Shown here: positions 5,629 through 52,114 of the stretch, in pieces
How positions within the stretch are numbered: the stretch's first letter is position 1
Layout: every line of letters starts with the position of its first letter
Origin: Aureimonas ureilytica DSM 18598 = NBRC 106430
GTDB taxonomy: Bacteria; Pseudomonadota; Alphaproteobacteria; Rhizobiales; Rhizobiaceae
Direction of reading: 5' to 3'
DNA: 64,000 bases
Assembly: GCF_000382705.1 (NCBI RefSeq)
Contig: NZ_ARQE01000013.1
Span: 1 to 64,000 of the forward strand
The notes under the pieces: model-generated
The model's input: only the letters and a program-made list of their open reading frames with translations
Told to the model about the DNA's origin: nothing
Database searches by the model: none
Translations under genes and position numbers: made by a program

Positions 5629-6678
5629 ATGGTCATGGACATTCGCGTTCGCAACATCCGCAAGGAATTCGATCTCTATCCCGCCCTGCACGACGTCTCG
5701 CTGGACATTCGCTCGGGCGAGCTGATCGCTCTGCTCGGGCCGTCCGGCTCGGGCAAGACCACGCTTCTCCGGCTCATCGCGGGGCTGGAGTTTCCGACCG
5801 CCGGGCAGATCTTCTTCGGCGACGACGACGCGTCGGAGAAGAGCGTGCAGGAGCGCAATGTCGGCTTCATGTTCCAGCACTACGCGCTGTTCAAGCACAT
5901 GACCGTCGCCGAGAATATCGGCTTCGGCCTCAGCGTGCGCGAGCGCGCGACGCGCCCGTCCAAGACGGAAATCCGCCGGCGCGCGAGCGAGCTTCTCGAT
6001 CTGGTGCAGCTTTCGGGCCTCGAGAAGCGCTATCCGCAACAGCTCTCGGGCGGCCAGCGGCAGCGCGTGGCGCTCGCCCGCGCGCTCGCCATCGAGCCGC
6101 GCGTTCTGCTTCTCGACGAGCCCTTCGGCGCGCTGGACGCCAAGGTGCGCAAGGAACTGCGCCGCTGGCTGCGCGAGTTGCACGACAAGATCGGCCTCAC
6201 CACCGTCTTTGTCACGCATGACCAGGAAGAGGCGCTGGAGCTTGCCGACCGCGTCGTGGTCATGAGCCAGGGCCGCATCGAGCAGGTGGGGTCGGCCGAC
6301 GACATCTACGACCGACCGAAGACGCCGTTCGTCTTCTCCTTCATCGGCCAGTCCAATCTCGTGCCGGTGGACGTTCGGGGCGGCGAAATCCGCCATGGCG
6401 AGACCGTGCTCGGGCAGACGTCGGAAGCGGACGGGCGCTGGAATCTCTATGTCCGCCCGCACGATCTCGACATCGTGGAGCCGGGGGCGCCGGCCTTGAG
6501 CGGCACCGTGTCGCTGTCCCGGCGGGCCGGCGGGTCGCGCATCTCGGAGTTCGAACTGGGACCGGACCGGCATCGCATCGAGGTCGAGCTTCCGGCCGAC
6601 CGGGGCGGCGAGCCGGGCACGCAGCTGCATGTGCGCCCGCGCCGCTGGCAGCTCTACCGGGACGGGGCTTCGGCGTAG
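5629..6678 (+). CDS. cysA: Sulfate/thiosulfate ABC transporter ATP-binding protein CysA
   Basis: This ATPase of the sulfate importer has 349 residues. The Walker A motif is GPSGSGKTT (about 38-46), the signature [15 protein letters not shown] (about 139-153) and Walker [13 protein letters not shown]. The H-loop is VTHDQEEAL. The C-terminal ~110 residues form a TOBE-like regulatory domain ending PRRWQLYR. It is the last gene of the sulfate operon, with a 10-bp dyad after it. A second ATG two codons in is possible. Confidence 0.95.
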
Positions 6679-6771: not shown

Positions 6772-7440
6772 TCAGTTCGATTTCATGCGCGCGGCCAAGC
6801 GCTCGATCCGCGCCTTGTCGGTCAGGCGCTCGCTGGCGAACACATCCGCCTCGATGCCGAGGATCGCATCCATCGCGGCTTTCGCGGCGGCCTGTTTCAC
6901 GTCGAAGGGCTTGGACGGCTTCTGGGCGCAATGGATCAGGCAGAGGGCCGCTTGTTCGCGATGCTTCCCGCGCGTTCCGCTGGCATATTTGATGATGCCC
7001 TTGATCTTGCGTTTGCCCTGATCGAGCACGGTCACGCCCGTTCCGAGCAGGACACCCGCGCCGTATCCCGCGACGCCGCCCGCCACCGTTCCGGCAACCG
7101 GAACGATCGAGCCCACCGTCGCGCCCGTCGCGGCGACACCGACGGCGATCGCGACCTTGGAGCCGCCGATCACCAGCTTCCGCTGCGCCTTCACGGTCTT
7201 CTTCCCGCGCGCATGGAGGATCGCGCGCTTCACGTCTTCGGGGGCGATGTCCTTGTTGTCGTAGGACTCGTCGCGCGCCTGAAAGTAGATCTGCAGGATG
7301 TCGCTGAGGAGCGACGCCTTGTCGGCCGCGGCCGCCGCCGACATGAAGTCGCCGGCCCCGGCGACGAAATGGCTCGCGACGCCCTTGCCGAGGTTCCAGT
7401 TCCCCATGGCCATGCGGGAGGCGGTGATCGGGTTGTCCAT
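6772..7440 (-). CDS. Hypothetical protein with central glycine-rich hydrophobic segments
   Basis: This 222-residue protein was not recognised. No signal peptide is visible. Residues ~85-140 hold two hydrophobic Gly/Ala/Val-rich stretches (VAIAVGVAATGATVGSIVP and GGVAGYGAGVLLGTGVTV). They resemble glycine-zipper membrane segments seen in small pore-like or membrane-inserting proteins. The flanks are charged and helical, and the C-terminal ~80 residues contain two Cys (CLIHC). It converges on cysA and lies upstream of the response regulator gene on the same strand, 157 bp away. No function can be assigned. Confidence 0.6.
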   Translation of the reverse strand: MDNPITASRMAMGNWNLGKGVASHFVAGAGDFMSAAAAADKASLLSDILQIYFQARDESYDNKDIAPEDVKRAILHARGKKTVKAQRKLVIGGSKVAIAVGVAATGATVGSIVPVAGTVAGGVAGYGAGVLLGTGVTVLDQGKRKIKGIIKYASGTRGKHREQAALCLIHCAQKPSKPFDVKQAAAKAAMDAILGIEADVFASERLTDKARIERLAARMKSN

Positions 7441-7597: not shown

Positions 7598-8527
7598 TCA
7601 GCTTTCACTCAAGGTCTTCATCACCAGAAACGTCGCCGACGCGCGGTTCTCGACGCCGAGCTTGGCGAAGACGACCTCCAGATGCTTGTTCACCGTGCGG
7701 GGGCTGAGGTCGAGAATGGCCGCGATGTCCCGGTTCGACTTGCCGCGCACCAGCCAAAGCAGGACGTCCGCCTCGCGCGCCGTCAGCCCGAAATGCTGGC
7801 GAAGGAGCGCTTCCTCGCCGGCCGTGTCGTCCACGGTCAGGCGAAACAGATGCTCGTCCTCGGCCACCTTGCCGAGCGCGCTGAGTTGCAGGCGCATTCC
7901 CGCCTCGGACGGCAGATCGCCGGCGGCCCCCAGCGGACCCGTCGCCCCCGCTTCCAGCCAGGCGCGCACCGGCGTGGGCAGGGCGGGGCGGCCGTCGACG
8001 GGCTCTGCCGCGCCGGTGAGAAGCCGCGTCGCCTGCGGCGTCGCCCAGAGGATGACGCCGGCTCCGTTGCTCGCCAGAAGGAACCGGCCGGCCGTGTCGA
8101 GCGCGGCGCGCGTGTTCTGCGCCGCGCGTGCATTGGCGAGATGGACGCGCATCCGCGCCAGAAGCTCGTCCGGCACGATGGGTTTGGCGACATAGTCGAC
8201 GCCGCCCGCTTCGAGGCCCTGCACGACATGTTCGGTGTCGGCGAGCCCGGTCATGAAGATGACGGGCACATGGCGCAGCGTCGGATCGGCCTTCAGCCGC
8301 CGCGTCGTCTCGAACCCGTCCATGCCGGGCATGATCGCGTCCATGAGCACGATGTCGGGCGTGATCGCCTGCGCGATGCCGAGCGCCTGTTCGCCGTCGA
8401 GCGCGACGAGAACCGTCGAGCCACCCTGTTCGATCGCGTCCGTCAGAAGCCGCAGCGTGTCGGGCGAATCGTCCACCACCAGAACGATGTCGCGCTCGCG
8501 GCCCGGCCCGGCCTTGGGGTCAGTCAT
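7598..8527 (-). CDS. Response regulator with receiver and LuxR/FixJ-type HTH domains
   Basis: This 309-residue protein has an N-terminal receiver domain with VVDDS (acidic pocket), phospho-acceptor Asp63 in LMDAIMPG and KP at the switch end (YVAKPIVP). A middle region of about 90 residues looks like a degenerate sensor or linker. The C-terminal helix-turn-helix (about 240-300) reads LTAREADVLLWLVRGKSNRD, typical of NarL/FixJ/LuxR regulators. Its ATG overlaps the 3' end of the upstream permease-kinase gene by 8 bases, so kinase and regulator are almost certainly a cognate pair. Its target may include the divergent urt operon (inference). Confidence 0.9.
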   Translation of the reverse strand: MTDPKAGPGRERDIVLVVDDSPDTLRLLTDAIEQGGSTVLVALDGEQALGIAQAITPDIVLMDAIMPGMDGFETTRRLKADPTLRHVPVIFMTGLADTEHVVQGLEAGGVDYVAKPIVPDELLARMRVHLANARAAQNTRAALDTAGRFLLASNGAGVILWATPQATRLLTGAAEPVDGRPALPTPVRAWLEAGATGPLGAAGDLPSEAGMRLQLSALGKVAEDEHLFRLTVDDTAGEEALLRQHFGLTAREADVLLWLVRGKSNRDIAAILDLSPRTVNKHLEVVFAKLGVENRASATFLVMKTLSES

Positions 8528-11500
8528 CGGGCGCGGCCTCCAGAAGGGCGACGATGCGGCGAAGATCGAACGCGCCGAGAGGAACCCGCATCGCGTCCAC
8601 GAAGGGTTTCATGCCGGCCTCGTTCTCCAGATTCGCGAGCACCTGTTCGATGCCCTTGGCATAGCCGATCCGGCCGAACTGAAGAAGCTGCGCGCGAATG
8701 GCGGGCGCGGGATAGCGCAGCGGCGCGGAATCAGTGGCCTCCGTCGCCGGCTCGCCTTGCGTCCATTCGAGCCCGAGCACGTCGCCGACGGTCGCCAGCA
8801 ATTGTCTGACGTCGAAGGGCTTGGGCAGCTGGGCGGCCGCCTCGGGGCCGGTCTCGCCGACGCCTGGCGCTTCGGCGAAGGTGGCCGACAGCATCACGAT
8901 CCCGCCTTTCTGCCCGTTGGCGCGCAGCGCCTTGGCGAGGTCCCAGCCGCTCATGCCGGGCATCTGCACGTCGAGAAGAAACAGGTCGGGGCGCATCTCC
9001 GCCGTCAGCGCCAGCGCGGCCGGGCCGTCGGGCGCCGTCAGCACGATGAAGCCGAGCGGGCGCAGAAGCTCCACCATCAGATCGCGATGCGTTTCGTCGT
9101 CGTCGACGGCCAGAACCGTGCGGCGCGGCCCGCCATAGCCTCGGATCGCATGGGCGGCGCCGCGCTCGGGGGCCGTCGGCAGGGGCGAGGCGCGGCCGGG
9201 CGGAAGCGCGGAGAGCATGACGCGCACTTCGAACCGGCTTCCCGCCCCGGGCTCGGAGATGACCTTGATGTCGCCGCCCATGAGATTGGCGAGAAGGCGG
9301 GTGATCGTCAGGCCGAGCCCGAGGCCCGGCGCCTTGCCCTGAGCCGCGCTCCCGCGCTCGAACGGCTCGAAGATGCGGCCAAGCTCGGGCTCGGCGATGC
9401 CGGGGCCCGTATCCGACACGGTGAGAATGGCGACCTGGCTGCGATAGGCGACCTCGAAGGTCACGCCGCCGGTTTCCGTGTATTTGACCGCGTTGGACAG
9501 GAGATTGATGAGGATCTGCCGCAGGCGCTTCTCGTCGGTGCGCACGACCTCCGGCAGCGTGTCCGGGCGCACGAACTGAAAGCGCAGGCCCTTGGCGCTC
9601 GCCTGAAGCTGAAACATGTCGACGAGCTGGGCGAGGAAATCGGCCAGCCGCACCTCGCTTCGCTGGAGTTGCAACCGGCCGGTCTCGATCTTGGAAATGT
9701 CGAGAAGTCCGTCGATCAGGCCGGACAGATGCTCGGCCGAGCGGCGGATGGTTCGGATGCCGCCGATCTTGGCCGGCGGAATGGCGACGTCCTGTTCCAG
9801 AAGCTGCGCATAGCCGAGCACGGCGTTCAGCGGCGTGCGCAGCTCGTGGCTCATGCCGACGACATAGCGGCTCTTGGCGAGGCTCGCCGCTTCCGCGGTT
9901 TCCTTGGCTTTCTGGAGCGCGGCGTCCGTCTGCCGATGCGCCTCGATCTCCTTCAGGAGGAGGGCGGTCTGGCGGGCGGATTCCTCCTGCGCGACGCGCC
10001 GCGATTCCTGCGCCAGCACGAAGAACCATGTGGAAATGCCGGCCACGATCATCAGGACGAAGAAGGCCGCCCAGAGCGCCCGCGCGATGACCTCCGTGTC
10101 GTCGGGGCTCGCTAGAACGGCTTGATAATAGATCAGCGCCAGGACGACCGAGATGACCCCCGCGAGCAGGGCGAAGCCGCCGATATAATGGCCGACCTTG
10201 GCGTCGATCCGCTTTCGCAGCGGTGCAGGCAGCGCGGCGCCGAGCGAGGCGACCTGCGCGGAAAAGCGCGCGTGCGGTTTGCAGAGATCATGGCACCGCG
10301 CGTCGAGCGAGCAGCAGAGCGAGCAGATCGGCGCGGCATAGGCCGGGCAATAAGCCATGTCTTCGGGCTCGAACGGCAACTCGCAGACGCCGCAGGTGAT
10401 CTCGCGGCGTTTCGCCCATTCGGCGCGCGGCTTGCGGGCGAGATAATAGCGCCCGCCCGTCGCATAGGCGATGAGCGGGGCGGTGACGAGCGCGACGCCG
10501 AGCGCGACGAAGGCCGAAAGCGCCTGCGCCACCTCGCCGAACGCACCCGCGAAGGCGAGAAGCGAGACGAGCGTCGCCAGCCCCATGGCGCCGAGGCCCA
10601 CCGGGTTAAGGTCGTAGAGATGGGCGCGCTTGAACTCGATGCCGGGGGGCGAGAGGCCGAGCGGCTTGTTGATCGCCAGATCCGCCACGATCGCGCCGAG
10701 CCAGGCGACCGCGACATTGGCGAACAGGCCGAACGTCACTTCGAGCGCCTCGTAGATGCCGAGTTCCATCAGCAGAAGCGCGATCGCGACGTTGAAGACG
10801 AGCCAGACCACGCGGCCGGGATGGCTATGGGTGAGACGCGAGAAGAAATTCGACCAGGCGAGCGAGCCCGCATAGGCGTTCATCACGTTGATCTTCAGCT
10901 GCGAGACCACCACGAAACCGGCCGTCAGCAACGCGGCAGCTTGCGGCGAGGGGAGGACGAAGCCGAAGGCGACCTGATACATCGCCGCCGGCTCCGCCGC
11001 ATGATCGGGCGACACGCCCGCCCGCAGCGCCAGCACGGCGAGAAACGAGCCGAAGAAGAGTTTGGGCACGCCGAGAACGATCCAGCCCGGTCCCGCCGCC
11101 AGAAGCGCCAGCCACCAGGAGCGGGCGGCGCGATCGCGCAAGGACGCGCGGCGCGGCTCGGGGAGAAAGCGCAGGATGTCCACCTGCTCCCCGATCTGCG
11201 GCATGAGCGCGAGAATGACGGAGGCCGCCGCGCCGAACTTCACCAGACTCAGCCCGTCCGCCTCGCTCATGCCGTCGAGACCCGGAAAGTTCAGCCAGGC
11301 GTCCACCGCACCCCAGTCCTGCCAGAGAATGAAGCCGATCGGCAGGATGTTGAGGCCGATCCAGATTGGCTGCGTCGCCAGCTGGAACCGGCTGATCCAG
11401 GTGACGCCATGCGTGACGAGCGGCACGACGGCGAGGGCGGAGACGATATAGCCGAGCCAGAGCGGCACGCCGAAGGCGAGCTGCAGGGCGGCCGTCATGA

Positions 11501-11906
11501 TCGAGGCCTCCACCGCGAAGAGGATGAAGGTGAAGGTCGCGTAGATCAGCGAGGTGATGGTGGAGCCGATATAGCCGAAGCCCGCGCCGCGCGTCAGAAG
11601 GTCGATATCGACGCCGTAGCGCGCGGCATAGAGGCTGATCGGCAGGCCGGTGACGAGCAGCACGAAGCCGACCACTATGATCGCCAGCGCCGCGTTGGAA
11701 AAGCCGAAGGAGAGGGTGATCGCGCCGCCGATCGCCTCCAGCGCCAGGAAGGAGATCGCGCCAATCGCGGTCTGCGACACTTGCGGGGCGGACCATCGCC
11801 GCGCGCGCTTGGCGGTGAAGCGCAGCGCGTAGTCTTCCAGCGTTTGATCGGCGACCCAGCGATTGTATTCGCGTCGGACGGGAAGAATGCGTTGACGCGC
11901 GGCCAT
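8520..11906 (-). CDS. NCS1-type permease fused to hybrid histidine kinase (with Cys-rich linker)
   Basis: This 1,128-residue multidomain sensor begins with a ~485-residue membrane region of about 12 hydrophobic segments, like NCS1 purine/cytosine permeases (start RREYNRWVADQTLEDYALRF; YGVDIDLLTRGAGFGYIGS). Residues 505-542 hold eight Cys (CGVC at 505-508, CSLCC at 528-532) and look like a zinc-ribbon. Two more membrane segments follow (about 575-595 and 610-630), then a coiled linker and HisKA with His687 in SHELRTPLN. HATPase, a receiver (LLDVQMPG) and a ~75-residue tail close the protein. It probably senses a nitrogenous solute and phosphorylates the overlapping regulator. An alternative ATG lies at 11951. 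Fusions of this kind parallel CbrA, which uses an SLC5 domain. Confidence 0.88.
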   Translation of the reverse strand: MAARQRILPVRREYNRWVADQTLEDYALRFTAKRARRWSAPQVSQTAIGAISFLALEAIGGAITLSFGFSNAALAIIVVGFVLLVTGLPISLYAARYGVDIDLLTRGAGFGYIGSTITSLIYATFTFILFAVEASIMTAALQLAFGVPLWLGYIVSALAVVPLVTHGVTWISRFQLATQPIWIGLNILPIGFILWQDWGAVDAWLNFPGLDGMSEADGLSLVKFGAAASVILALMPQIGEQVDILRFLPEPRRASLRDRAARSWWLALLAAGPGWIVLGVPKLFFGSFLAVLALRAGVSPDHAAEPAAMYQVAFGFVLPSPQAAALLTAGFVVVSQLKINVMNAYAGSLAWSNFFSRLTHSHPGRVVWLVFNVAIALLLMELGIYEALEVTFGLFANVAVAWLGAIVADLAINKPLGLSPPGIEFKRAHLYDLNPVGLGAMGLATLVSLLAFAGAFGEVAQALSAFVALGVALVTAPLIAYATGGRYYLARKPRAEWAKRREITCGVCELPFEPEDMAYCPAYAAPICSLCCSLDARCHDLCKPHARFSAQVASLGAALPAPLRKRIDAKVGHYIGGFALLAGVISVVLALIYYQAVLASPDDTEVIARALWAAFFVLMIVAGISTWFFVLAQESRRVAQEESARQTALLLKEIEAHRQTDAALQKAKETAEAASLAKSRYVVGMSHELRTPLNAVLGYAQLLEQDVAIPPAKIGGIRTIRRSAEHLSGLIDGLLDISKIETGRLQLQRSEVRLADFLAQLVDMFQLQASAKGLRFQFVRPDTLPEVVRTDEKRLRQILINLLSNAVKYTETGGVTFEVAYRSQVAILTVSDTGPGIAEPELGRIFEPFERGSAAQGKAPGLGLGLTITRLLANLMGGDIKVISEPGAGSRFEVRVMLSALPPGRASPLPTAPERGAAHAIRGYGGPRRTVLAVDDDETHRDLMVELLRPLGFIVLTAPDGPAALALTAEMRPDLFLLDVQMPGMSGWDLAKALRANGQKGGIVMLSATFAEAPGVGETGPEAAAQLPKPFDVRQLLATVGDVLGLEWTQGEPATEATDSAPLRYPAPAIRAQLLQFGRIGYAKGIEQVLANLENEAGMKPFVDAMRVPLGAFDLRRIVALLEAAPDD

Positions 11907-12023
11907 GCCTGTTTTCTGGGTCGTTCGATGGGTCGGCTGAATTTTGAGCATTGTCCACGTCGCACCGCAGAAGCGCAAGAGCCGGCGTCTCTCCCGCATC
12001 CACGTCCGGCATGGAGGCCGACC

Positions 12024-12039
12024 TACGTCGTTTGACGTA
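12024..12039. promoter_or_regulatory. 16-bp palindrome, candidate operator between the permease-kinase gene and urtA
   Basis: TACGTC-GTTT-GACGTA is a perfect 6+6 dyad with a 4-base spacer. It lies about 100 bases upstream of urtA and 120-190 bases upstream of the kinase start, depending on which start is used. Short dyads of this form are typical of dimeric NarL/FixJ-type regulators. Binding by the neighbouring regulator is inference. Confidence 0.4.
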
Positions 12040-12136
12040 TGGGCGAAGCGCGGAAGCCCGGCCGATAGTCCTCTCCGACAGCGAACGCAGGCGCCGAAAC
12101 GGGCGGTGCGACGCGGCACGAAGAGGGGAACGCACC

Positions 12137-13441
12137 ATGACTTTCAAGGCTAGGCTTTGCGGCGTCGCGCTGGCGGCAGCGCTGTCCACCACCGCGCTTC
12201 ATGGCGCGCTCGCGGCCGAGGACACGATCAAGGTCGGCATCCTTCATTCGCTCTCGGGCACGATGGCGATTTCGGAGACGACCCTGAAAGACGCCATGCT
12301 CATGCTCATCGACGAGCAGAACAAGAAGGGCGGCCTTCTCGGCAAGAAGCTCGAAGCCGTGGTCGTGGACCCCGCCTCCGACTGGCCGCTCTTTGCGGAA
12401 AAAGCCCGTCAGCTGATCGCGCAGGACAAGGTCGCCGCCACCTTCGGCTGCTGGACCTCGGTGTCGCGCAAGTCGGTTCTGCCGGTCTTCAAGGAGCTGA
12501 ACTCGATCCTCTTCTACCCCGTGCAGTACGAGGGTGAGGAATCCGAGCGCAACGTCTTCTACACGGGCGCCGCTCCCAACCAGCAGGCGATCCCCGCCGT
12601 CGACTACCTCATGAAGGAAGGCGTCGAGCGCTGGGTTCTGGAAGGCACGGACTATGTCTATCCGCGCACCACGAACAAGATCCTCGAAGCGTACCTCAAG
12701 TCCAAGGGTGTCGCCGCCGAGGACATCAAGGTGAACTACACGCCCTTCGGCTTCTCCGACTGGCAGACCGAGGTCTCGGCGATCAAGGATTTCAGCGGCT
12801 CCGGCAAGAAGACGGCCGTGGTCTCGACCGTGAACGGCGACGCCAACGTGCCCTTCTACAAGGAACTCGCGAACCAGGGCGTCTCGGCCGAGACGACGCC
12901 GGTCATGGCCTTCTCGGTCGGCGAGGAAGAGCTCGCCGGCATCGACACCGCGCCGCTCGTCGGCCACCTCGCCGCCTGGAACTACTTCGAATCGGTCGAT
13001 ACGCCGGAGAACGAAGAGTTCATCGCGAAGTGGAAGGAGTTCACCAAGAACGACAAGCGCGTCACCAACGACCCGATGGAAGCCCACTATATCGGCTTCA
13101 ACATGTGGGTGAAGGCCGTCGAGGCCGCCGGCACGACCGATCCGGACAAGGTGATCGACGCGATGGTCGGCGTCGCCGTTCCCAATCTGTCGGGCGGCTA
13201 TTCCTCGATGGGCGCGAACCACCACATCACCAAGCCGGTGCTGATTGGCGAGATCCAGGCCGATGGCCAATTCGAGATCGTCGATCAGACGCCCGGCCTC
13301 GTGCTCGGCGACGAATGGTCGGACTTCCTGCCGGAATCGGCGCCGCTGATCGCCGATTGGCGCAAGCCCATGAGCTGCGGCAACTTCAACACGCAGACCG
13401 GCAAGTGCGGCGGTTCGGACGCCAAGGTGGCCTCCAACTGA
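12137..13441 (+). CDS. urtA: Urea ABC transporter substrate-binding protein UrtA
   Basis: This 434-residue periplasmic urea receptor belongs to the branched-chain amino-acid receptor superfamily. A Sec signal peptide spans about residues 1-26 (GALA cleavage). The mature protein starts with IKVGILHSLSGTMAISETTL. UrtA hallmarks such as ATFGCWTSVSRKSVLPVF and YPVQYEGEESERNVFYTGAA are present. The ATG at 12137 gives a normal signal peptide and follows an AGGGGAACG stretch. It is the first gene of urtABCDE. A hairpin separates it from urtB. Confidence 0.97.
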   Translation: MTFKARLCGVALAAALSTTALHGALAAEDTIKVGILHSLSGTMAISETTLKDAMLMLIDEQNKKGGLLGKKLEAVVVDPASDWPLFAEKARQLIAQDKVAATFGCWTSVSRKSVLPVFKELNSILFYPVQYEGEESERNVFYTGAAPNQQAIPAVDYLMKEGVERWVLEGTDYVYPRTTNKILEAYLKSKGVAAEDIKVNYTPFGFSDWQTEVSAIKDFSGSGKKTAVVSTVNGDANVPFYKELANQGVSAETTPVMAFSVGEEELAGIDTAPLVGHLAAWNYFESVDTPENEEFIAKWKEFTKNDKRVTNDPMEAHYIGFNMWVKAVEAAGTTDPDKVIDAMVGVAVPNLSGGYSSMGANHHITKPVLIGEIQADGQFEIVDQTPGLVLGDEWSDFLPESAPLIADWRKPMSCGNFNTQTGKCGGSDAKVASN

Positions 13442-13450
13442 GACACGTCG

Positions 13451-13477
13451 AGCGGCTCTCCCGACAGGAGAGCCGCT
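13451..13477 (+). terminator. 11-bp hairpin in the urtA-urtB spacer (attenuator)
   Basis: AGCGGCTCTCC (13451-13461) pairs perfectly with 13467-13477 around a 5-base loop, followed by TTTCT. It begins 10 bases past the urtA stop. Partial termination here would leave urtA mRNA more abundant than the permease/ATPase message. Confidence 0.65.
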
Positions 13478-13515
13478 TTCTGTCGCCTTCTTCCATCTAC
13501 CGATCCGGGACCCCC

Positions 13516-15171
13516 ATGTTGAATCATCTCCGCGCCGTTCTGACGGGCTTTCTGGAAGTGCTGGCGCTCAGCCTCGCGCTTCTGGCGGGCGCGTTCGTGG
13601 CGTTCGGCGGCACGTCCTTCGCGCAAGGGGCCGACCCCGCCGCCATCATCTCGGACTTCGCCGGCAAGAAAGGCTTCGAGGACACCGAAGCGACCGTCCG
13701 CGCCCTCGCCGCGACGGGCGACCCGCGCGTATCGACGGTGCTGGACGCATTGGCTGCGGGCGATCTCTATTATGGGAAGAGCGACAACCGCGTCGTGATC
13801 GCGACCGGCAAGGGGGCTTCGCTCGCCATTGCCGATCCGCTGACGGGAGGCTCGCTCGGCGAGGCGCCGAAGGCGAGCCTCGAGAAGGTGCGCGTCAAGA
13901 ATTCCATCCGCGCGCTCGTGGCGGAGTTGAAGGGCGGGCTGACGCTCGGCTCCAGCGACCCGGCCGAGCGCATGGCGGCGGCCGTCGGCCTGTTCGATAA
14001 AGCCGCGCCCGATCAGATCGCGGTGCTCGACGGCGCCATCGCCAAGGAAACCGACCCGGCGATCCGCGCGCGCTTCGCCGAGGCGAGGGCGGTGGCGGTG
14101 CTGCGATCCGACCGCCCTTCCGAGGAGCGGCGCGACGCCGCGCAACTCGTCGCCGCGCGTGGCGACCGGGCGGCGCAGAACGTCCTTTCGGCCTTCGTCG
14201 ATGATCCCGATCCGGCTGTCGCCAAGGCGGCGAGCGCGGGTTCGGCGTCGATCGCCCAGAGAATCGCGCTTTGGGGGCAGGCGCAGAACATCTGGTACGG
14301 GCTTTCGCTCGGCTCGGTCCTGCTTCTGGCCGCGATCGGCCTCGCCATTACGTTCGGCGTCATGGGCGTCATCAACATGGCGCATGGCGAGATGGTGATG
14401 ATCGGCGCCTACACGACCTTCGTCGTGCAGCAGGCGCTGCGTCTCCATGCGCCGCAATGGCTCGACTGGAGCCTCGCGCTCGCCCTTCCGCTCGCCTTCC
14501 TCGTCGCCGGCTTCGTCGGCTTCGTGATGGAACGCGGCATCATCCGCTTCCTCTACGGGCGTCCGCTCGAAACCCTGCTCGCGACCTTCGGCGTGTCGCT
14601 GATCCTTCAGCAGGCCGTTCGCACGCTCTTCGGGCCGACCAACCGCGAAGTGTCCAACCCCTCGTGGATGTCCGGCTCCTTCGATGTCGGCCTCATGGCC
14701 GTCACCTGGAACCGCCTCTGGATCATCGTCTTCGCGCTCGCCGTCTTCGCCGCGCTTCTCTTCGCGCTGAACCGCACCTCGGCCGGCCTCAAGATGCGCG
14801 CCGTGACGCAGAACCGGCGCATGGCCGCCGCCATGGGCATCCGCACGCCGATGGTGGACGCGATGACCTTCGCGCTCGGCTCCGGCATTGCCGGCATGGC
14901 GGGCGTCGCGCTCAGCCAGATCGACAATGTCTCGCCCGACTTGGGCCAAGGCTACATCATCGACAGTTTCATGGTGGTGGTCTTCGGCGGCGTCGGCAAT
15001 CTCTGGGGCACGCTCGTCGGAGCCATGAGCCTCGGCATCGTCAACAAGTTCCTCGAACCCTATGCCGGCGCGGTGCTCGGCAAGATCGTGGTGCTCGTCC
15101 TCATCATCCTCTTCATCCAGAAGCGCCCGCGCGGCCTCTTCGCCCTCAAGGGAAGGTTCGTCGACGCATGA
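13516..15171 (+). CDS. urtB: Urea ABC transporter permease UrtB
   Basis: This 551-residue permease has an N-terminal signal/anchor (about 1-36) and a ~225-residue soluble extension typical of UrtB. The C-terminal ~290 residues form the LivH-like membrane domain, with GVMGVINMAHGEMVMIGAY and TFGVSLILQQ. With UrtC it makes the transmembrane channel for urea. The stop codon overlaps the urtC start as ATGA (15168-15171). Length is normal for the family. Confidence 0.95.
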   Translation: MLNHLRAVLTGFLEVLALSLALLAGAFVAFGGTSFAQGADPAAIISDFAGKKGFEDTEATVRALAATGDPRVSTVLDALAAGDLYYGKSDNRVVIATGKGASLAIADPLTGGSLGEAPKASLEKVRVKNSIRALVAELKGGLTLGSSDPAERMAAAVGLFDKAAPDQIAVLDGAIAKETDPAIRARFAEARAVAVLRSDRPSEERRDAAQLVAARGDRAAQNVLSAFVDDPDPAVAKAASAGSASIAQRIALWGQAQNIWYGLSLGSVLLLAAIGLAITFGVMGVINMAHGEMVMIGAYTTFVVQQALRLHAPQWLDWSLALALPLAFLVAGFVGFVMERGIIRFLYGRPLETLLATFGVSLILQQAVRTLFGPTNREVSNPSWMSGSFDVGLMAVTWNRLWIIVFALAVFAALLFALNRTSAGLKMRAVTQNRRMAAAMGIRTPMVDAMTFALGSGIAGMAGVALSQIDNVSPDLGQGYIIDSFMVVVFGGVGNLWGTLVGAMSLGIVNKFLEPYAGAVLGKIVVLVLIILFIQKRPRGLFALKGRFVDA

Positions 15172-16325
15172 TCACCGCCCGCTTTCTGGGACCCCGCGCC
15201 CTCTGGCTCGCTGGCCTCCTCGTTCTCGTCGCCGTGCTCGTGCCCGTCTCGAACCTCGCGCTCGATGTCGGCCATCCCTTGCGCGTGCCGGATCATCTCG
15301 TGCCTCTGTTCGGCAAGTATCTCTCCTACGCGATCCTGGCGCTCAGCCTCGATCTCGTCTGGGGCTATGTCGGCATTCTCTCGCTCGGCCATGGCGCGTT
15401 CTTCGCACTCGGCGGCTATGCGATGGGCATGTATCTGATGCGCCAGATCGGCAGCCGGGGCGTCTATGCCAATCCGGTCCTGCCCGATTTCATGGTCTTC
15501 CTGAACTACAAGGAACTGCCCTGGTTCTGGCAGGGGTTCGACCAGTTCTGGTTCGCAGCGCTCATGGTGCTGCTGGTGCCGGGCCTTCTGGCCTTCCTGT
15601 TCGGGTATTTCGCCTTCCGCTCGCGGGTCACTGGCGTCTACCTCTCGATCATCACGCAAGCCCTGACCTACGCTTTGCTCCTCGCCTTCTTCCGAAACGA
15701 CATGGGGTTCGGCGGCAACAATGGCCTGACCGACTTCAAGGACATTCTCGGCTTCCCCATCCAGGCCGGATCGACGCGCGCCGCGCTCTTCGCCGCGACG
15801 GCAATCGTGCTCGCGCTCTTCGTGCTGATGGTCTCGGCCGTGACGCGCTCCAAGCTCGGGCTTCTGATGGTCGCCGTGCGGGACGCGGAAAGCCGCACGC
15901 GGTTCCTCGGCTGGCGGGCCGAGCATGTGAAGCTCTTCGCCTTCACGCTCTCGGCGGTGATGGCGGGCGTTGCCGGAGCGCTCTACGTGCCGCAGGTCGG
16001 CATCATCAATCCCGGCGAGTTCGCGCCGCTCAACTCGATCGAGGTCGTGGTCTGGACGGCGGTTGGCGGGCGCGGAACGATCCTCGGTCCGGTGCTCGGC
16101 GCGCTGCTCGTCAATGGCGGCAAGAGCTACTTCACCGCCGCCGCGCCCGAAAGCTGGCTCTTCGTTCTCGGCTCGCTCTTCGTGGTGGTCACGCTCTTCC
16201 TGCCGCGCGGCATCGTCGGCACGATCGACCAGGGCTGGCGCGCCCTGTCCGAGCGCCGCAGCGCGGCCCGCGCCGAGAAGGGCACCGCCTCGGGTGCTGC
16301 CACCAACCCCAGCCCGGCGGAGTGA
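15168..16325 (+). CDS. urtC: Urea ABC transporter permease UrtC
   Basis: This 385-residue LivM-like inner-membrane permease partners UrtB. It has about nine to ten hydrophobic segments. The conserved LDLVWGYVGILSLGHGAFFA lies near residue 60, and the cytoplasmic coupling region AVRDAESRTRFLGW lies near 240. The gene starts with the ATG of an ATGA overlap with urtB, which fixes the start. urtD begins 5 bases after its stop. Confidence 0.95.
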   Translation: MITARFLGPRALWLAGLLVLVAVLVPVSNLALDVGHPLRVPDHLVPLFGKYLSYAILALSLDLVWGYVGILSLGHGAFFALGGYAMGMYLMRQIGSRGVYANPVLPDFMVFLNYKELPWFWQGFDQFWFAALMVLLVPGLLAFLFGYFAFRSRVTGVYLSIITQALTYALLLAFFRNDMGFGGNNGLTDFKDILGFPIQAGSTRAALFAATAIVLALFVLMVSAVTRSKLGLLMVAVRDAESRTRFLGWRAEHVKLFAFTLSAVMAGVAGALYVPQVGIINPGEFAPLNSIEVVVWTAVGGRGTILGPVLGALLVNGGKSYFTAAAPESWLFVLGSLFVVVTLFLPRGIVGTIDQGWRALSERRSAARAEKGTASGAATNPSPAE

Positions 16326-16330
16326 CCCTC

Positions 16331-17170
16331 ATGACCATGACGAGTTCTGCCCCGGCGCGTATTTCGCCGCACCCCTATGCAACGCTTCTGGCCGAAGCGC
16401 GTGAGAGGGAAGCGGCCGGCCGGCCGCCGCGCGGCGAGACGCTGCTCTACCTCAATGGCGTGACCAAGAGCTTCGACGGGTTCAAGGCGATCAACGATCT
16501 GTCGCTCGTCGTCGCGCGCGGCGAGATGCGCGCCATCATCGGCCCGAACGGCGCCGGCAAGACGACGATGATGGATATCATCACCGGAAAGACCAAGCCC
16601 GACGCGGGCGAGGTCTATTTCGCGGGTGATACCGACCTGACGCGGCACGACGAGGCCGACATCGCCTCCATGGGCATCGGCCGCAAGTTCCAGAAGCCGA
16701 CCGTCTTCGAAAGCCACACGGTGGAGGACAATCTGGTTCTCGCCCTGTCCGGCCAGCGCGGCGTCTTCTCGACGCTGTTTCACAAGCGCACGACGACGGA
16801 AAAGGCGCGGATCGACGCGATCCTGGAGACGGTGCGCCTGACCTCGCGCCGCGACAAGCCGGCCGCCGACCTCAGCCACGGGCAGAAGCAATGGCTGGAA
16901 ATCGGCATGTTGCTGGCGCAGGACCCCGAGCTTCTTCTCGTGGACGAGCCGGTCGCGGGCATGACGGACGCGGAAACCGAGGAGACGGCCAAGCTCCTGC
17001 GTGAAATCGCCGAGACGCGCTCCGTCGTCGTGGTCGAACACGACATGCACTTCGTCCGCGCACTCGGCGTGAAGGTCACCTGCCTCCACGAGGGCCATGT
17101 TCTGGCCGAGGGCCCGCTCGATCAGGTCTCGGCCGATCCACGCGTCATCGAAGTCTATCTGGGGCGCTGA
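16331..17170 (+). CDS. urtD: Urea ABC transporter ATP-binding protein UrtD
   Basis: This ATPase subunit has 279 residues and a ~35-residue N-terminal extension before the core, as is common in UrtD. Walker A is GPNGAGKTT. The LivG-type variant signature reads DLSHGQKQWLEIGMLL, and Walker B is LLLVDEPVAGM. The H-loop is VVEHDMHFV. An in-frame ATG two codons downstream is an alternative start. urtE follows 2 bases after the stop. Confidence 0.95.
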   Translation: MTMTSSAPARISPHPYATLLAEAREREAAGRPPRGETLLYLNGVTKSFDGFKAINDLSLVVARGEMRAIIGPNGAGKTTMMDIITGKTKPDAGEVYFAGDTDLTRHDEADIASMGIGRKFQKPTVFESHTVEDNLVLALSGQRGVFSTLFHKRTTTEKARIDAILETVRLTSRRDKPAADLSHGQKQWLEIGMLLAQDPELLLVDEPVAGMTDAETEETAKLLREIAETRSVVVVEHDMHFVRALGVKVTCLHEGHVLAEGPLDQVSADPRVIEVYLGR

Positions 17171-17172
17171 CC

Positions 17173-17865
17173 ATGCTGACTGTTTCGAATGTCGATCTCT
17201 TCTATGGCGCGGCGCAGGCTCTGCGCGGCGTCTCCCTGAACGCGCAGAAGGGGCAGATTACCTGCGTCCTCGGCCGCAACGGTGTCGGCAAGACCTCGCT
17301 GATGCGCGCCATCGTCGGGCAGCAGGCGATCCGCTCCGGGCAGATCGCGCTGGACGGCAGCGACCTGAAGGGCGAGGCGCCCTACACGCGCGCCCGGCGC
17401 GGCATCGGCTTCGTGCCGCAGGGCCGCGAGGTCTTTCCGCTGCTCTCGGTGAAGGAAAATCTCCAGACCGGATTCGCGCCGGTGAAGCGCGGCGAGCGCA
17501 CCATTCCCGACCATGTGTTCGAGCTGTTTCCGGTGCTGAAATCCATGCTCTCGCGGCGCGGAGGCGATCTGTCGGGCGGCCAGCAGCAGCAGCTCGCCAT
17601 CGGCCGCGCGCTGGTGACGCGCCCGAGCCTCCTCGTGCTGGACGAGCCGACCGAGGGCATCCAGCCCTCGATCATCAAGGATATCGGCCGCGCCATCCGC
17701 TACCTGAAGGACGCCGGCATGGCCGTGCTTCTCGTGGAGCAATATCTCGAATTCTGCCGCGAGCTCGCCGACAAGGTTTACATCATGGATCGCGGCCAGA
17801 TCGTGTTCGAGGGCGTCGGCGCCGATCTGGACGACCCCGAGGTACGCAGGCACCTGACCGTCTGA
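17173..17865 (+). CDS. urtE: Urea ABC transporter ATP-binding protein UrtE
   Basis: This 230-residue LivF-like ATPase completes the urea importer. Walker A is GRNGVGKTS, the signature LSGGQQQQLAIGRAL and Walker B LLVLDEPTEGIQPSI, the last being characteristic of UrtE. It is the last gene of the operon. Imported urea would be split by urease, but no urease gene lies in this window. Confidence 0.96.
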   Translation: MLTVSNVDLFYGAAQALRGVSLNAQKGQITCVLGRNGVGKTSLMRAIVGQQAIRSGQIALDGSDLKGEAPYTRARRGIGFVPQGREVFPLLSVKENLQTGFAPVKRGERTIPDHVFELFPVLKSMLSRRGGDLSGGQQQQLAIGRALVTRPSLLVLDEPTEGIQPSIIKDIGRAIRYLKDAGMAVLLVEQYLEFCRELADKVYIMDRGQIVFEGVGADLDDPEVRRHLTV

Positions 17866-18170: not shown

Positions 18171-18216
18171 TTAAGACTTGCCGGGCATGATGGCGTGCTG
18201 AGGCAAGGATCGCTTG

Positions 18217-20304
18217 ATGATTTCGACGGTCGAATTTCTCGGGATGCGTTTTCTCGACGCCAATCCCTCCGGCGTCCGCGCCGCCCTGTGCGACGCGCTG
18301 AAGGGACCGTTCGGATACGTCGTCACGCCCAATGTCGATCACGTCGTTTCCTATCATCGTGGCGACGCAGGCTTGCGCGCCGCTTATGACGGCGCGGCGT
18401 TTCAGATCTGCGACAGCCGGGTCCTGGCCAAGCTCGCCTCCCTTAACGGATTGCACCTGACGCCCTTTCCGGGCTCCGATCTGACGCGCGAGCTTCTGGA
18501 GCAGCCGCTTCATTCCGGCCTGCGCATGGCCGTGATCGGACCGGACGAAGCGGCGTTTCGCGATCTTCGGGCGCGATTTCCGTCCGTCGATCTCGTGCAT
18601 ATTCCCTGCGCCGCGCAACTCGGGGTCGGCACGGGAGAGTGGTGGCAGACGGTCGGACGCGCCGCCGCGGCGGATTGGGATCTTCTCTTCGTCTGCCTGT
18701 CCTTTCCCAAGCAGGAACTCTTCGCGCGCGATCTCGGCCGCACCGGGCGCGAGCGGGGCCTGGCGCTGTGCGTCGGCGCGAGCATCGACTTCCTGACCGA
18801 TCGCCAGACGCGCGCGCCGAAGGCGATGCAGCGGGCGAATCTCGAATGGCTCCATCGTCTCGCGAGCGATCCTCGCCGCATGGCGCGGCGCTATCTCCAA
18901 CGCGGCCCGGCGATCTTTGGCCTCGCCGCACGCGCATGGCGGGCGGAGCGGGGCAGGGACCGCACGTCTGAGCGGCGGCGTGTGCTTGTCTTGTCCACCG
19001 TCCTGCCGCATGGCCGCAGCACGGGGGGCGAGATCGCCTCCATGAACTTCATCGAAGGGCTGCGCGCGACGGGCTGCGAGGTCGATATTCTCGCCTATCG
19101 GCGGGAGGGCGACGATCGGGAGCCACCGCCGGGCTTCCTGTCGCCGCGCGACTGGCCGATCGAAAGCGCGGGACGCCCTGTTCGAGCCGCCGCCTGGATG
19201 GGGCGCGCCTATCTCGCGCGCCGGCCCTACTCGGTTCAGAAATATGTCGGCGCTCGGATCAAGCGGCTCCTGCGCCTGCGCCTTCGAACCGCGCCGCCCG
19301 ATCTCGTGGTGGTCGATCACGCCCAGGCAAGCTGGCTCCTTCCGCTCGTCCCGGCCCATCTCCCGGTGGTTCTGATCGCCCATAACGTGGAGCATCAGCT
19401 CTATGGAAGTCATGGCGACGCTGTCGGGGGAGCCGGGAAGGCGAGCCCGAAGCAGCGTTTGAAAGGTGCCGTCTACAAGCGGGAGGGCGAGCGCCTTTCC
19501 GCCGTCGAGCGCGCCGCCGCCCTCCGGGCGCAGGAAATCTGGACGCTGACCGACGACGACGCCGCCGCCTTCGCGCAGATGGCACCGGGGCGCGTCGTGC
19601 GCAGCTTCGGTGTCCCGGGACAGGCCTTTCGCGGCGCCTGCGAACCGCTGCCTGAGCCCAGCGTCGATGTCGGGCTTCTCGGCAGCTGGACCTGGGACGT
19701 CAATCGCGCCGGGCTCGACTGGTTTCTCAAATCCGTCGCGCCCCGCTTGCCGAAGGACCTGCGCATCACCGTCGCCGGTCGATCCGACCATGCGCCCGGC
19801 ACGGTGCGCAGCAATGTCCGCTTCGCGGGCTTCGTGCCGGATGCGGGCGCGTTCCTGCGCAGCTGCCGCGTCGTGGCGATCCCCAGCACGGTCGGTTCGG
19901 GAATCCAGATCAAGACGATCGAAACCCTCGGGCTCGGCGTGCCCACCGTCGCGACAACGGTCGCGCTGCGCGGCATCGACGATCCGCCCCTCGATCTTCG
20001 GGTCGCCAACGGAGCGACCGACATGGTGAGCGCCATTCTGGAAGCGCTCGACGCGCCGAGGCCGGACGGGCGAGACGGCGCGGTCTGGCGGCAAGCGCGC
20101 GAGCATGCCTTCCGGACCGATCTCGCCCATGCGCTCGACGCATTGTTTGAGGAAGCCCTGCTCGAGCGACCCTCGCATGTCGCAAGCGAGGCGGCCGGAG
20201 AGAAGGGCTCGATCCTGGAAGGGCCTCACGTCGAGCGCAGCGAGGATGGAACGAGCACCCCGACCGAGCAGGCACGGCTCCGCATGGGAGCTATGCGCCG
20301 ATAG
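18217..20304 (+). CDS. Fused glycosyltransferase: GT26 (WecG/TagA) domain plus GT4-like domain
   Basis: This 695-residue protein begins with a GT26 (WecG/TagA/CpsF) domain of about 245 residues: VTPNVDH, CDSRVL with the conserved Asp, FPKQELFARDLG, and the closing LEWLHRLASDPRRMARRYL. From about residue 255 a GT-B fold of the GT4 type starts (VLVLSTVLPHGRSTGGE; IAHNVEHQLY), with a nucleotide-sugar region near 560-610 (GSGIQIKTIETLGLGVPTVA). The protein would transfer two sugars in succession to a lipid-linked or surface glycan. The ATG at 18217 has AAGGA seven bases upstream, better than a TTG one codon earlier. It stands alone, just after the MITE. Confidence 0.85.
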   Translation: MISTVEFLGMRFLDANPSGVRAALCDALKGPFGYVVTPNVDHVVSYHRGDAGLRAAYDGAAFQICDSRVLAKLASLNGLHLTPFPGSDLTRELLEQPLHSGLRMAVIGPDEAAFRDLRARFPSVDLVHIPCAAQLGVGTGEWWQTVGRAAAADWDLLFVCLSFPKQELFARDLGRTGRERGLALCVGASIDFLTDRQTRAPKAMQRANLEWLHRLASDPRRMARRYLQRGPAIFGLAARAWRAERGRDRTSERRRVLVLSTVLPHGRSTGGEIASMNFIEGLRATGCEVDILAYRREGDDREPPPGFLSPRDWPIESAGRPVRAAAWMGRAYLARRPYSVQKYVGARIKRLLRLRLRTAPPDLVVVDHAQASWLLPLVPAHLPVVLIAHNVEHQLYGSHGDAVGGAGKASPKQRLKGAVYKREGERLSAVERAAALRAQEIWTLTDDDAAAFAQMAPGRVVRSFGVPGQAFRGACEPLPEPSVDVGLLGSWTWDVNRAGLDWFLKSVAPRLPKDLRITVAGRSDHAPGTVRSNVRFAGFVPDAGAFLRSCRVVAIPSTVGSGIQIKTIETLGLGVPTVATTVALRGIDDPPLDLRVANGATDMVSAILEALDAPRPDGRDGAVWRQAREHAFRTDLAHALDALFEEALLERPSHVASEAAGEKGSILEGPHVERSEDGTSTPTEQARLRMGAMRR

Positions 20305-24799: not shown

Positions 24800-24874
24800 T
24801 GGTGGGCGCGACAGGGATCGAACCTGTGACCCCCTCGGTGTGAACGAGGTGCTCTCCCGCTGAGCTACGCGCCC
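24800..24874 (-). tRNA. tRNA-Val (anticodon CAC)
   Basis: On the minus strand a 75-base cloverleaf starts GGGCGCG, pairs with CGCGCCC at the acceptor end, and ends in an encoded CCA. The anticodon stem CCTCG/CGAGG holds loop TTCACAC, so the anticodon is CAC (reads GUG). The T arm contains GGTTCGATCC. It stands alone between the MscS-type and HAD genes. No integrated element is evident at its 3' end. Confidence 0.96.
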
Positions 24875-44247: not shown

Positions 44248-47200
44248 TTACTCGAAGCGGCCCGAGGCGTGGGCGAGCATCGTGTAGACCTTGCCCGTGT
44301 CGGACGAAAGGTAGCTCTTGCTCTTCGCATTGTCCGGGTCGTTGCGGGACGCTTCCTGCAGCAGCATCTCGAAGTCGCCAATATAGCGGTCCACCGCGCT
44401 CTTGAAGCTCGCGTCGCGCTGATACTTGCGACGGATCTCGTCGAACGTCTGCTGACCCTTCATCGTGTAGAGGCGGCGCGTGAAAACGTTGCGCTCGCCG
44501 CTGCGATAGCGGTCCCAGAGTTCGACCGAGACATTGTGGTCGATCGCGCGGGCGATATCCACCGACAGCGAGTTCAGCGAGTCCACGACATGAGCCTGCG
44601 TGCGCTCCTGCCGGTCCGACGCCGTTTCGCTCGCCGCAGGGGCGGGGGCGGCCGGCTCCTGCGAGCCTTCGTCCTCTTCCTGCGAGGCGCGGCGGAGGAG
44701 GTCGGAGACCCAGCCCCCCTGACGCTCACCCTCGCCACCCGCCTGCGGACGCTCCGGCAGAGCGGCCGGGCGAAGCGGCGACAGGTCGGAGCCGCGCGGC
44801 GCCGGAGCGGCCGGAGCCGCAGGACGCGTCTCCACATGGCCGCGCGTGTCGCGGGCCAGGTTGCCCTCGTTCACATAGCCGCCGGCGAGATAGGCCTCCG
44901 GCGCGGCGCGCTCGGCCGCTTCCGCAGGCTGCGCGGCGGGACGGGCGGGCGCCCGGACATCCGTCGAGCGGGCCGCCAGCGGGGCTGCCGGGCGAGCGGA
45001 TACGGCGCTCGGCGAGCGCACGTCGAGCGAGCGGCCGGACTGCGTGACGATGTCGGTCAGCTCGCGCAGGGCGCGGATCTGGTCGGACACCGCGCGGCGC
45101 ATGGCACGCGTGCTTTCCTTGGTTTCCTCGGGCAGTTCGAAGACGCCCTTGCGGATTTCCGTGCGCGCGTTTTCCAGCTCGCGGCGGATGTCGGCGGCGG
45201 CACGATGCATGTCGCTCGTCGCGCTGCCGAAGCGCTGCGTGGCTTCTTCCACCACGCCGCGGATCGTCTCGCGCACCTGACCGGCGGCGGCGGCGGAGCG
45301 GCGCTCCGTTTCTTCCATCTGACGGCCCGCTTCGTCCAGCGACGCGGTGAGATCGCCGCTGATCGTCTCGACGACGGACTGCGTGCGACGCTCGGCTTCG
45401 GCGAAGAGGCGATCCACCACGCCCTCGAAGGACAGGAGCATCCGGCCGACATCGTCCGAACGGGTCGCAAGACCGCTGGCGAGCGCTTCCAGACCTTCGC
45501 GGCGGCCTTCCAGCGTTTCCTGCAGATTGTTCTGCGAGGAGTCGAGAAGGGCGGCGGCTTCCGTCAGCATGCGCTCGTGCTCGCCAAGCTTCTCGCCGAG
45601 GGTCGACAGGCGATCCAGGGCCTGGGCCGTGGTGTCGTCCATCCGCACCACGTTGCGCTCCAGGCGCTCCGAGGAAGCGGCGATCTCGCCGCCCACGCGG
45701 TCCGCCTCGTCGCGGAAGCGGGCGCCCGTCTCGTTGAGCGCGGTTTCGGCGCGGCCCATGTTCTGGGCGGCATCGTCCAGAAGGTTGCGCAGGGCCGAAT
45801 TGCCACTTTCGAGCCGTTCGGCCAGAGAACCGATGTCGCTCGCCAGAAGCTCGCGGGCATCCGAGATCGACGAGGTGAGCGAGCCGGAGCGGTCGTCCAG
45901 CGCGGCCAGAAGGCCGGAGGACGAAATGCCCAGATGCTCCACCGTCTCCTCGGCGCGGCGAACGAAGTCCGCCACGATGGCTTCGTTCTCGCTGCGCAGG
46001 CGCTCGGCCACCTGACGCGCGGCGGCTTCCAGCGCTTCCACGGCCTGCGAGCCGGTGGAGGACAGGCGCTCGACGATCGGACGGGTTTCGGTGTCGATAA
46101 GGCGGGCGATCTCCGCGTTGCGGCCGGACAGAAGGTCCGCCAACTCGCGGGTGCGCTGGTTCATCGAGTCGCTGACGGCCTCGGCGCGGGCCACAAGCTG
46201 GTTTTCGGACGCTTCCACGCGCTGGACCAGTTCGTTGCCGAACAGGCCGGTGGATTCGGCGATCTGCTCGCGAATGCGATCGGCCTCGACGCGGATCGCG
46301 GTCGCGACACCCGACAGGCGCTGCGTGATCTCGGAGCCTTCCGACATGAGGTTCTGACGGGCGGCCTGCGCGTCGCGCAGGATATTGCCCGCGATGTCGG
46401 TCGCGTCCGAGCGCATCGTCCCGGTAACCGAGACGATCTCGTCGCGAATGAGGTTCGCCGCGCTTTCGATCTCGGCCCGAAGAACGGCGGCCGACTGCGT
46501 GAGGTCCTCGCGGACGCCGTCCGTGGTTCCGTCGAGAACCTGCGAGAGCTGCACGGACAGTCCGGCGAGCTCCGTCGCGAAGCGCGTGGCGCGCTCGTCG
46601 AGGGTCGAGGAGGAGCGGTCCGTCTCGCCCCGGATGAGGGCGGCGGCATCCTGCACGCGGTGGGCGAAGGCTTCCGCATCGCCCGACAGGCGGTTGCGGG
46701 CGGCTTCAGCCTGTTCGCTCATCGACAGGGCGACGGCGTCGAGTTCTTCCGACAGGCGAAGCGCTTCGGCCGCCAGACGCTCGCGGGTTTCCCCGGCGCC
46801 GTTCTGCAGTCGATCGGTCGCCTGCGTGACCTCGTCCACGATGCGGCGGGCCTGTTCGGCGACTTCCAGCTGCAGACGATCCGTCTCGCCGCGCATGGCG
46901 GTGGCGACGGAGCCGACCTGTTCGGCGATGCGTCCCGCATCCTCGAGGAGAAGGCGACGCGACGTCTCGCCCGCTTCGTTGAGGTTCCCGCTGGCGGTCT
47001 GGAACTCTTCCACCAGACGGCGGGTCTGCTGGGCGACGTCCTGCTGAAGCTGGTCGGCCTCGACGCGCATGGCGGTGACCATCGAGCTGACCTGCTCGGC
47101 GACACGGCCCGCATCCTCCAGGAGGAGGCGACGCGAGGTCGCGCCGGCTTCGTTGAGATTGCCGCTGGCGTTCTGGAACTCTTCGACGAGGCGACGCGAC

Positions 47201-51735: not shown

Positions 51736-52114
51736 CGTGCGCCGCGCCTCGATACTCGTTACATTGGGTCCGTCAGGGCCGTTCGGGCATGCCTTGGGCA
51801 GGCCGATCAGCGCCGCGAAGGACCTCGCCACCCTCTCGCCACCGAACGGGCGGCAAGACGGCATGATCCTAGCTCATAAGGTAAATAGGAGAGCTCGGGA
51901 AAGAAACCGCAAAAGCGGGCGAAACCTACAAGTTTAAACATTTGGTTAACGCCGCCCGATGGTTCTGCGAGCCGAGTGTGTGGTTCTGACGCCAAACGAC
52001 GACTCGCAAGTCCGGTTCATGAGCCCACAATGACCAACATGCGATAGGGCCGCCATTCCAAACCCGGGATATTTGTGATTTTCCCCCGATTTCGTTCGCC
52101 TTTTCATACCGGAA
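51736..52114. promoter_or_regulatory. Divergent upstream region of the GPR homologue and the HPt gene
   Basis: This 379-bp AT-richer gap must hold both promoters. A TTAA-N8-TTAAC pair at 51934-51950 resembles a CtrA site with one extra spacer base. No small gene is convincing. Confidence 0.35.

Follow-up and report, generated by a model that had tools for sequence, protein, structure and literature searches.

The window, i.e. the whole stretch of 64 000 nucleotides that was analyzed, contains a hybrid sensor kinase gene and a response-regulator gene on the minus strand, which face the genes of a urea importer on the plus strand. The genes and protein domains of this locus are as follows.

7598–8527, minus strand: response regulator of 309 amino acids with a receiver domain (REC; residues 15–126, including Asp63) and a LuxR/GerE helix–turn–helix (HTH; residues 248–299), from Pfam
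8520–8527, minus strand: overlap of 8 bases between the stop of the kinase gene and the start of the regulator gene
8520–11906, minus strand: hybrid sensor kinase of 1128 amino acids, with the start ATG at 11904–11906
10455–11837, minus strand: NCS1-derived 12-helix membrane domain, residues ∼24–484, from profile comparison and fold
10278–10394, minus strand: zinc-finger-like eight-cysteine module, CxxC...C...ICSLCC...C...CK, residues ∼505–543
9987–10202, minus strand: two extra long helices (residues 568–598 and 600–639) in the interval between the cysteine module and HisKA, from the structure model
9678–9875, minus strand: HisKA, with the codon of the invariant His687 at 9846–9848, from Pfam and alignment
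9216–9539, minus strand: HATPase_c, from Pfam
8787–9116, minus strand: receiver domain of the kinase (Response_reg), with the codon of Asp979 at 8970–8972, from Pfam and alignment
12137–13441, plus strand: urtA, urea ABC substrate-binding protein (TIGR03407, 554.4 bits; cut-off 492.75)
13516–15171, plus strand: urtB (TIGR03409, 433.3 bits; cut-off 250.3)
15168–16325, plus strand: urtC (TIGR03408, 435.9 bits; cut-off 296.2)
16331–17170, plus strand: urtD (TIGR03411, 383.5 bits; cut-off 304.1)
17173–17865, plus strand: urtE (TIGR03410, 336.5 bits; cut-off 285.8)

Residue numbers of the kinase are counted from the ATG at 11904–11906; those counted from 11951 are 15 higher. The protein has the make-up of a hybrid histidine kinase, with a HisKA domain that includes the phospho-acceptor His, a HATPase_c domain and a receiver that includes the Asp, and the nearest protein among the database matches listed (98% identity over the searched region) was from Aureimonas ureilytica. 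The first-pass annotation had described a transporter-like domain, a histidine kinase, a receiver and a cysteine-rich linker in one protein, a regulator gene overlapping the kinase gene by 8 bases, and divergence of this pair from urtABCDE. Domain, profile and fold analysis confirmed the first of these, the overlap was located at 8520–8527, and the divergent operon occupies 12137–17865. The importer is a Urt urea ABC importer, UrtA to UrtE all scoring above the curated cut-offs. The N-terminal ∼250 residues of UrtB (13516–14280) precede the TIGR03409 part, for which the match covers residues 257–547 of 551.

The regulator, with its REC and GerE HTH domains, is of the FixJ/NarL type. It lies directly downstream of the fusion kinase on the same strand at 155 of 159 fusion loci, and its HTH is nearly invariant across 68 rows. 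Of the four exceptions, L070 stops at a contig edge, and L082, L088 and L132 have a regulator of another kind that is common to all three. Two of these, L082 (7502–10153) and L132 (7666–10302), encode fusion-kinase paralogs that have no receiver and adjoin FmdA and FmdB. The only kinase seen without a membrane domain was a relative at L276 (6357–8213) that lacks the NCS1 domain, adjoined at 8309–9205 by a regulator gene that is of the same type and in convergent orientation. In the window, a 222-amino-acid open reading frame (ORF) without a Pfam or NCBIfam match (6772–7440) is located directly downstream of the regulator gene.

A protein search returned at least 8000 matches at E = 0.001 or better, which may not all be fusions. 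Matches were found in 33 of 150 genomes of the order sample, or 30 after removal of the weak, partial, kinase-less cases G031, G055 and G121, and in 59 of 398 genomes of the phylum sample, or 52 without the weak or partial cases G309, G328, G356, G370, G420, G428 and G517. The 159 fusion loci comprise 78 and 80 loci from two genome sets, some genomes being in both, and the window; two others were left out before counting, L137 because it encodes a standalone permease and L138 because it gave no match at E = 1e-8. Linkage markers (urtA-type, formamidase, aliphatic amidase and urease) were sought by tblastn over ∼8–9 kb on each side, as far as the contigs permitted. At 154 of the 159 loci, a marker was located near the kinase: the Urt importer, an importer resembling Urt (in most cases accompanied by formamidase or amidase) or urease. 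After thinning by identity, linkage was retained at 100 of 103 loci at 90% and at 60 of 62 at 80%. The lack of conserved linkage, named in the first-pass annotation as a refutation of its proposal, was not observed; linkage is strongly conserved. At four of the five unlinked loci (L080, L088, L133 and L211) the contig ends 0–0.8 kb upstream of the kinase, and the flanks of the fifth, L203, are full.

Two types of importer are present at the fusion loci: Urt1, which resembles that of the window, and Urt2, with a UrtA that is ∼40% identical to the window UrtA and that, in the one example scored, reached 526.8 bits and thus exceeded the UrtA cut-off. Urt2 loci mostly contain FmdA and FmdB, and often an aliphatic amidase. 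Eight fusion loci have urease genes without urtA, one of which (L117) has urtCDE. In the order sample, 29 of 30 fusion genomes versus 54 of 120 others had a UrtA scoring above its cut-off (Fisher p = 5e-8, with genomes taken as independent); the 54 latter genomes indicate that Urt does not need the kinase–regulator pair. In a quick tree with 73 rows, seven changes are required for the partner labels, one of which is the outgroup, against a minimum of four; this indicates that partners have been exchanged, yet among urea and amide functions.

The membrane domain is homologous to the NCS1 permease family according to profile comparison (99.9%, E = 2.3e-34; 99.8%, E = 9e-28), and a fold search returned the LeuT-type fold, with the cytosine carrier CodB and the hydantoin carrier Mhp1 as the closest structures. 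The domain was not recognized in Pfam, NCBIfam or PDB sequence searches, and none of 64 members reached the gathering score of PF02133 (Transp_cyt_pur); this silence is not counted against NCS1 ancestry because the profile comparison and the fold search agree. No SLC5 (SSS) membrane domain was found in the kinase. A phmmer search of a standalone relative against the PDB produced only a spurious synthetase match, and the weak Pfam rows, among them CcmH and DUF6526, were regarded as chance.

To compare the binding pocket, CodB residues (PMC9379551) were mapped by alignment onto the 64 sequences. The column of CodB Trp108 (TM3) is occupied by Phe in 42 and by Leu in 22 sequences, while Leu replaces Phe204 (TM6) and Thr replaces Gln105 in all 64, so that the NCS1 stacking aromatics (Trp in TM3 and Phe/Trp in TM6) are not kept in this family. 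The Na2 ligands are likewise not kept in the 64 sequences: the Thr278 column corresponds to Lys338 in all of them, a match that presumes an ungapped TM8, where the alignments put a three-residue gap, and the Thr279 column contains Ile in 63 and Val in one. Glu133, four residues past the Trp108 column, is invariant in the same sequences and is taken to be at the position of Mhp1 Gln121, with Mhp1 Trp117 presumably being the equivalent of CodB Trp108. Candidate residues of the pocket are Glu133, Gln237, Glu240 and Lys338. Since the protein lacks a Pfam match to the family as well as its stacking aromatics and its sodium ligands, it was not filed as an NCS1 permease. The standalone NCS1 protein at L137 (7949–9439) has the same glutamate as the kinases, with Arg where these have the lysine, which indicates that part of the pocket change arose before the fusion or apart from it.

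The first-pass annotation had described a purine/pyrimidine-permease fusion. In a rival explanation, the NCS1-derived domain would sense a nucleobase or ureide (uracil, hydantoin or allantoin), and urt would be induced since such compounds yield urea. Although the nearest folds are indeed those of cytosine and hydantoin carriers, the residues by which CodB and Mhp1 hold nucleobases are replaced here, whereas the two substrate-stacking aromatics of CodB are described as conserved throughout NCS1 (PMC9379551). Furthermore, the recurring neighbors noticed are urea, formamide and amide genes rather than those of base catabolism, which were outside the marker set. Nucleobase sensing is accordingly improbable, and a purine or pyrimidine is not the preferred candidate; with the stacking aromatics and sodium ligands replaced, a nucleobase appears less likely to be the ligand than urea or a short amide. 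Ring-less ligands can be accommodated by the fold, as an NCS1 carrier of the linear compound metformin indicates (PMC13390362). The window genome contains urease alpha and gave no PF03069 formamidase match, which makes urea the simplest ligand here.

The domain may alternatively still transport urea or an amide, with kinase activity following transport instead of static binding. The structure model retains the 12-helix LeuT-type fold intact, and CbrA, an SLC5 kinase, is described as combining transport and signaling (PMC13022988). The Lys–Ile pair in place of the Na2 threonines argues against transport, subject to the TM8 alignment noted above, although a sodium-independent carrier would be compatible with this replacement; we consider such a transporting receptor unlikely.

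A third explanation places the sensor, for zinc, nickel or redox conditions, in the cysteine module, the urea genes responding on account of nickel or the redox state. All eight cysteines are invariant in 60 of 60 sequences. When the module was folded and searched on its own, including a comparison with RING and treble-clef zinc fingers, the matches were too weak for naming a fold. Urease is a nickel enzyme, and several urease-linked members are adjoined by genes that we take to be HupE/UreJ-like, with no family match in a profile search. However, at most loci the linked genes are those of Urt or of formamidase/amidase and not of urease, and the polar residues that are invariant in the membrane domain suggest that the receptor is located in that domain, which makes a sensing cysteine module very unlikely.

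The intergenic region between the kinase and urtA contains two candidate regulatory elements.

12024–12039, no strand assigned: TACGTCGTTTGACGTA, palindrome TACG-N8-CGTA, predicted to be the operator bound by the regulator, from conservation and controls
12064–12069, plus strand: GATAGT, proposed −10 element of urtA, from conserved A and T columns in 32 Urt1-type rows

The palindrome, which is matched once in the window, lies 97 bp before urtA. Among 109 loci at which the kinase and the importer are adjacent and divergent, 94 contain it (41 of 42 for Urt1 and 53 of 67 for Urt2); the spacer of 8 accounts for these 94 loci and any other spacer of 0–15 for none or one in the same intergenic regions, and Markov-simulated control sequences contained the palindrome in 0.15% of cases. 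In the 15 adjacent regions without the exact site, nine have a seven-of-eight variant, which is uncontrolled and not counted, and six have none. Where the genes are not adjacent, the exact site is found within 500 bp upstream of urtA at 33 of 35 loci and upstream of the kinase at one of 35. The divergent arrangement of most loci had suggested that the palindrome might serve the kinase promoter, but these 35 loci, where it follows urtA, argue against this as its main role. Overall, 127 of 144 loci (41 of 54 at 80% identity) have the palindrome upstream of urtA, the exact site being missing at 17. In the window genome of 5.09 Mb, TACGTCNNNNGACGTA is matched with at most one mismatch at 12024–12039 alone (one match for the reversed-pattern control), and the loose pattern has five matches (87 for the reversed-pattern control).

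The palindrome was absent from stretches of ∼3–4 kb in all 40 fusion-negative order genomes with UrtA that were sampled from the 54, and from the upstream regions of all nine urtA or Urt-like genes that are unlinked to the pair within fusion genomes; one of these genes, at L272, has a palindrome match inside the gene. By computation, the palindrome depends on the presence of the kinase–regulator pair. Nor was it found at the two formamidase-only loci that were scanned or at the eight loci that are linked to urease and have no urtA; a looser pattern, T[AG]CG-N8-CG[TC]A, produced scattered, patternless matches at the urease-linked loci and was set aside. Sites near the kinase occur at three loci: L203 has the exact site directly upstream of the fusion kinase (8903–8918) and lacks urt, formamidase and urease markers over ∼9 kb, L276 has the variant TGCGTTAAATAACGTA upstream of the kinase, at 6106, and L164 has a site upstream of both the kinase and urtA. 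These sites make autoregulation of the pair possible.

The palindrome could instead be bound by another regulator that merely co-occurs, with the kinase–regulator pair acting elsewhere. What ties the regulator to the site is its co-occurrence and position, and at L203 and L276 the site or its variant is near the pair without urtA. The absence of the site from the fusion-negative and unlinked urtA upstream regions, however, leaves the pair as the common factor, and the regulator HTH is nearly invariant; binding by a different protein is thus quite unlikely, and the regulator encoded beside the kinase remains the predicted ligand of the palindrome.

In 32 nonredundant Urt1-type rows, a conserved A at +40 and T at +44 from the start of the palindrome fit a −10 element; the window candidate is shifted one base further than these columns. 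Urt2-type rows have no conserved −10 columns of this type, and a scan of 11800–12200 for consensus σ70 promoters and terminators found nothing. The −10 position would put the center of the palindrome near −43.5 (∼−44.5 in the window), and class II activators sit at such a position.

Given the linkage to urea or amide genes at nearly all loci surveyed and the matching site before urtA, the pair probably switches urea uptake on. The earlier reading, a sensor for nitrogenous compounds that possibly regulates urt, is supported by this linkage and by a candidate operator that tracks the pair. In the proposed mechanism, the NCS1-derived membrane domain would be the receptor, its LeuT-type conformation changing when urea or a short amide is bound; the cysteine module and the two extra helices would relay this change to the HisKA dimer. 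The kinase would then phosphorylate the REC–LuxR regulator encoded by the overlapping gene, as suggested by the domains and the pairing, and a regulator dimer would bind TACG-N8-CGTA, centered ∼43–45 bp before the inferred urtA start (near 12076), to activate urtABCDE. Taken together, a two-component system of this kind, controlling the acquisition of urea and elsewhere of short amides, is in our judgement likely. The broader proposal is that the NCS1 fold has become a dedicated receptor for urea or short amides in a large, undescribed class, in which an invariant lysine replaces sodium ligands, the base-stacking residues are lost and a novel cysteine module leads to the kinase, with the regulator activating urea, formamide and amide uptake via TACG-N8-CGTA in lineages of alpha, beta and gamma type within the phylum; towards this we lean only slightly.

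Fusions of transporters to kinases are known, as the first-pass annotation had stated for CbrA with its SLC5 domain, in agreement with PMC13022988. In CbrA and CrbS/MxtR (SLC5–STAC kinases), a transporter-type domain is likewise fused to a histidine kinase whose response regulator controls nutrient use, and CrbS is described as a hybrid kinase as well (PMC13022988, PMC7918813, PMC5715377). However, their membrane domain is SLC5 rather than NCS1, their linker is STAC rather than an eight-cysteine module with two helices (compared by description), and their ligands are histidine and acetate. The present arrangement would thus work like CbrA/CrbS, yet it is not one of the SLC5 kinases. The Amt–histidine kinase of the anammox bacterium Kuenenia also joins a transporter domain for a nitrogen compound to a kinase (PMC5764959), but has the Amt/Rh fold and senses ammonium, its membrane domain being unrelated. 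CodB and Mhp1 share homology and fold with the membrane domain of the kinase family, which differs from them in its replaced stacking aromatics and Na2 threonines and in the kinase fusion. In operon III of Ectopseudomonas guguanensis G3, a hybrid kinase and a LuxR regulator are annotated next to a second set of urtABCDE genes, and the locus number of fmdA is a neighboring one (PMC13296017). Judged from its annotation, this pair is very probably a member of the same system; the available text of that source gives annotation only, with the permease domain, site and function absent. In the open-licence literature, no study of the fusion system was found beyond this annotation.

A widespread kinase family with a defined receptor, regulator, operator and target would make urea and amide sensing directly testable, and the site together with the urtA promoter would provide a ready reporter for ligand finding. 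The family would add a second large transporter superfamily branch to the small number of transporter–kinase fusions that have been studied, and gives a likely function to proteins that are now listed merely as hybrid sensor histidine kinases. To our knowledge, few bacterial urea sensors are known, such as UreR, and for amides AmiC–AmiR.

Elsewhere in the window, a WecG/TagA-type and a group 1 glycosyltransferase are fused in one ORF (18214–20301), and the sole RNA gene found is a tRNA-Val (cac) at 24800–24874. A minus-strand ORF of 2538 amino acids (44251–51864) contains nine apolipoprotein-type helical stretches and lies opposite a plus-strand ORF of 1795 amino acids without a Pfam match.
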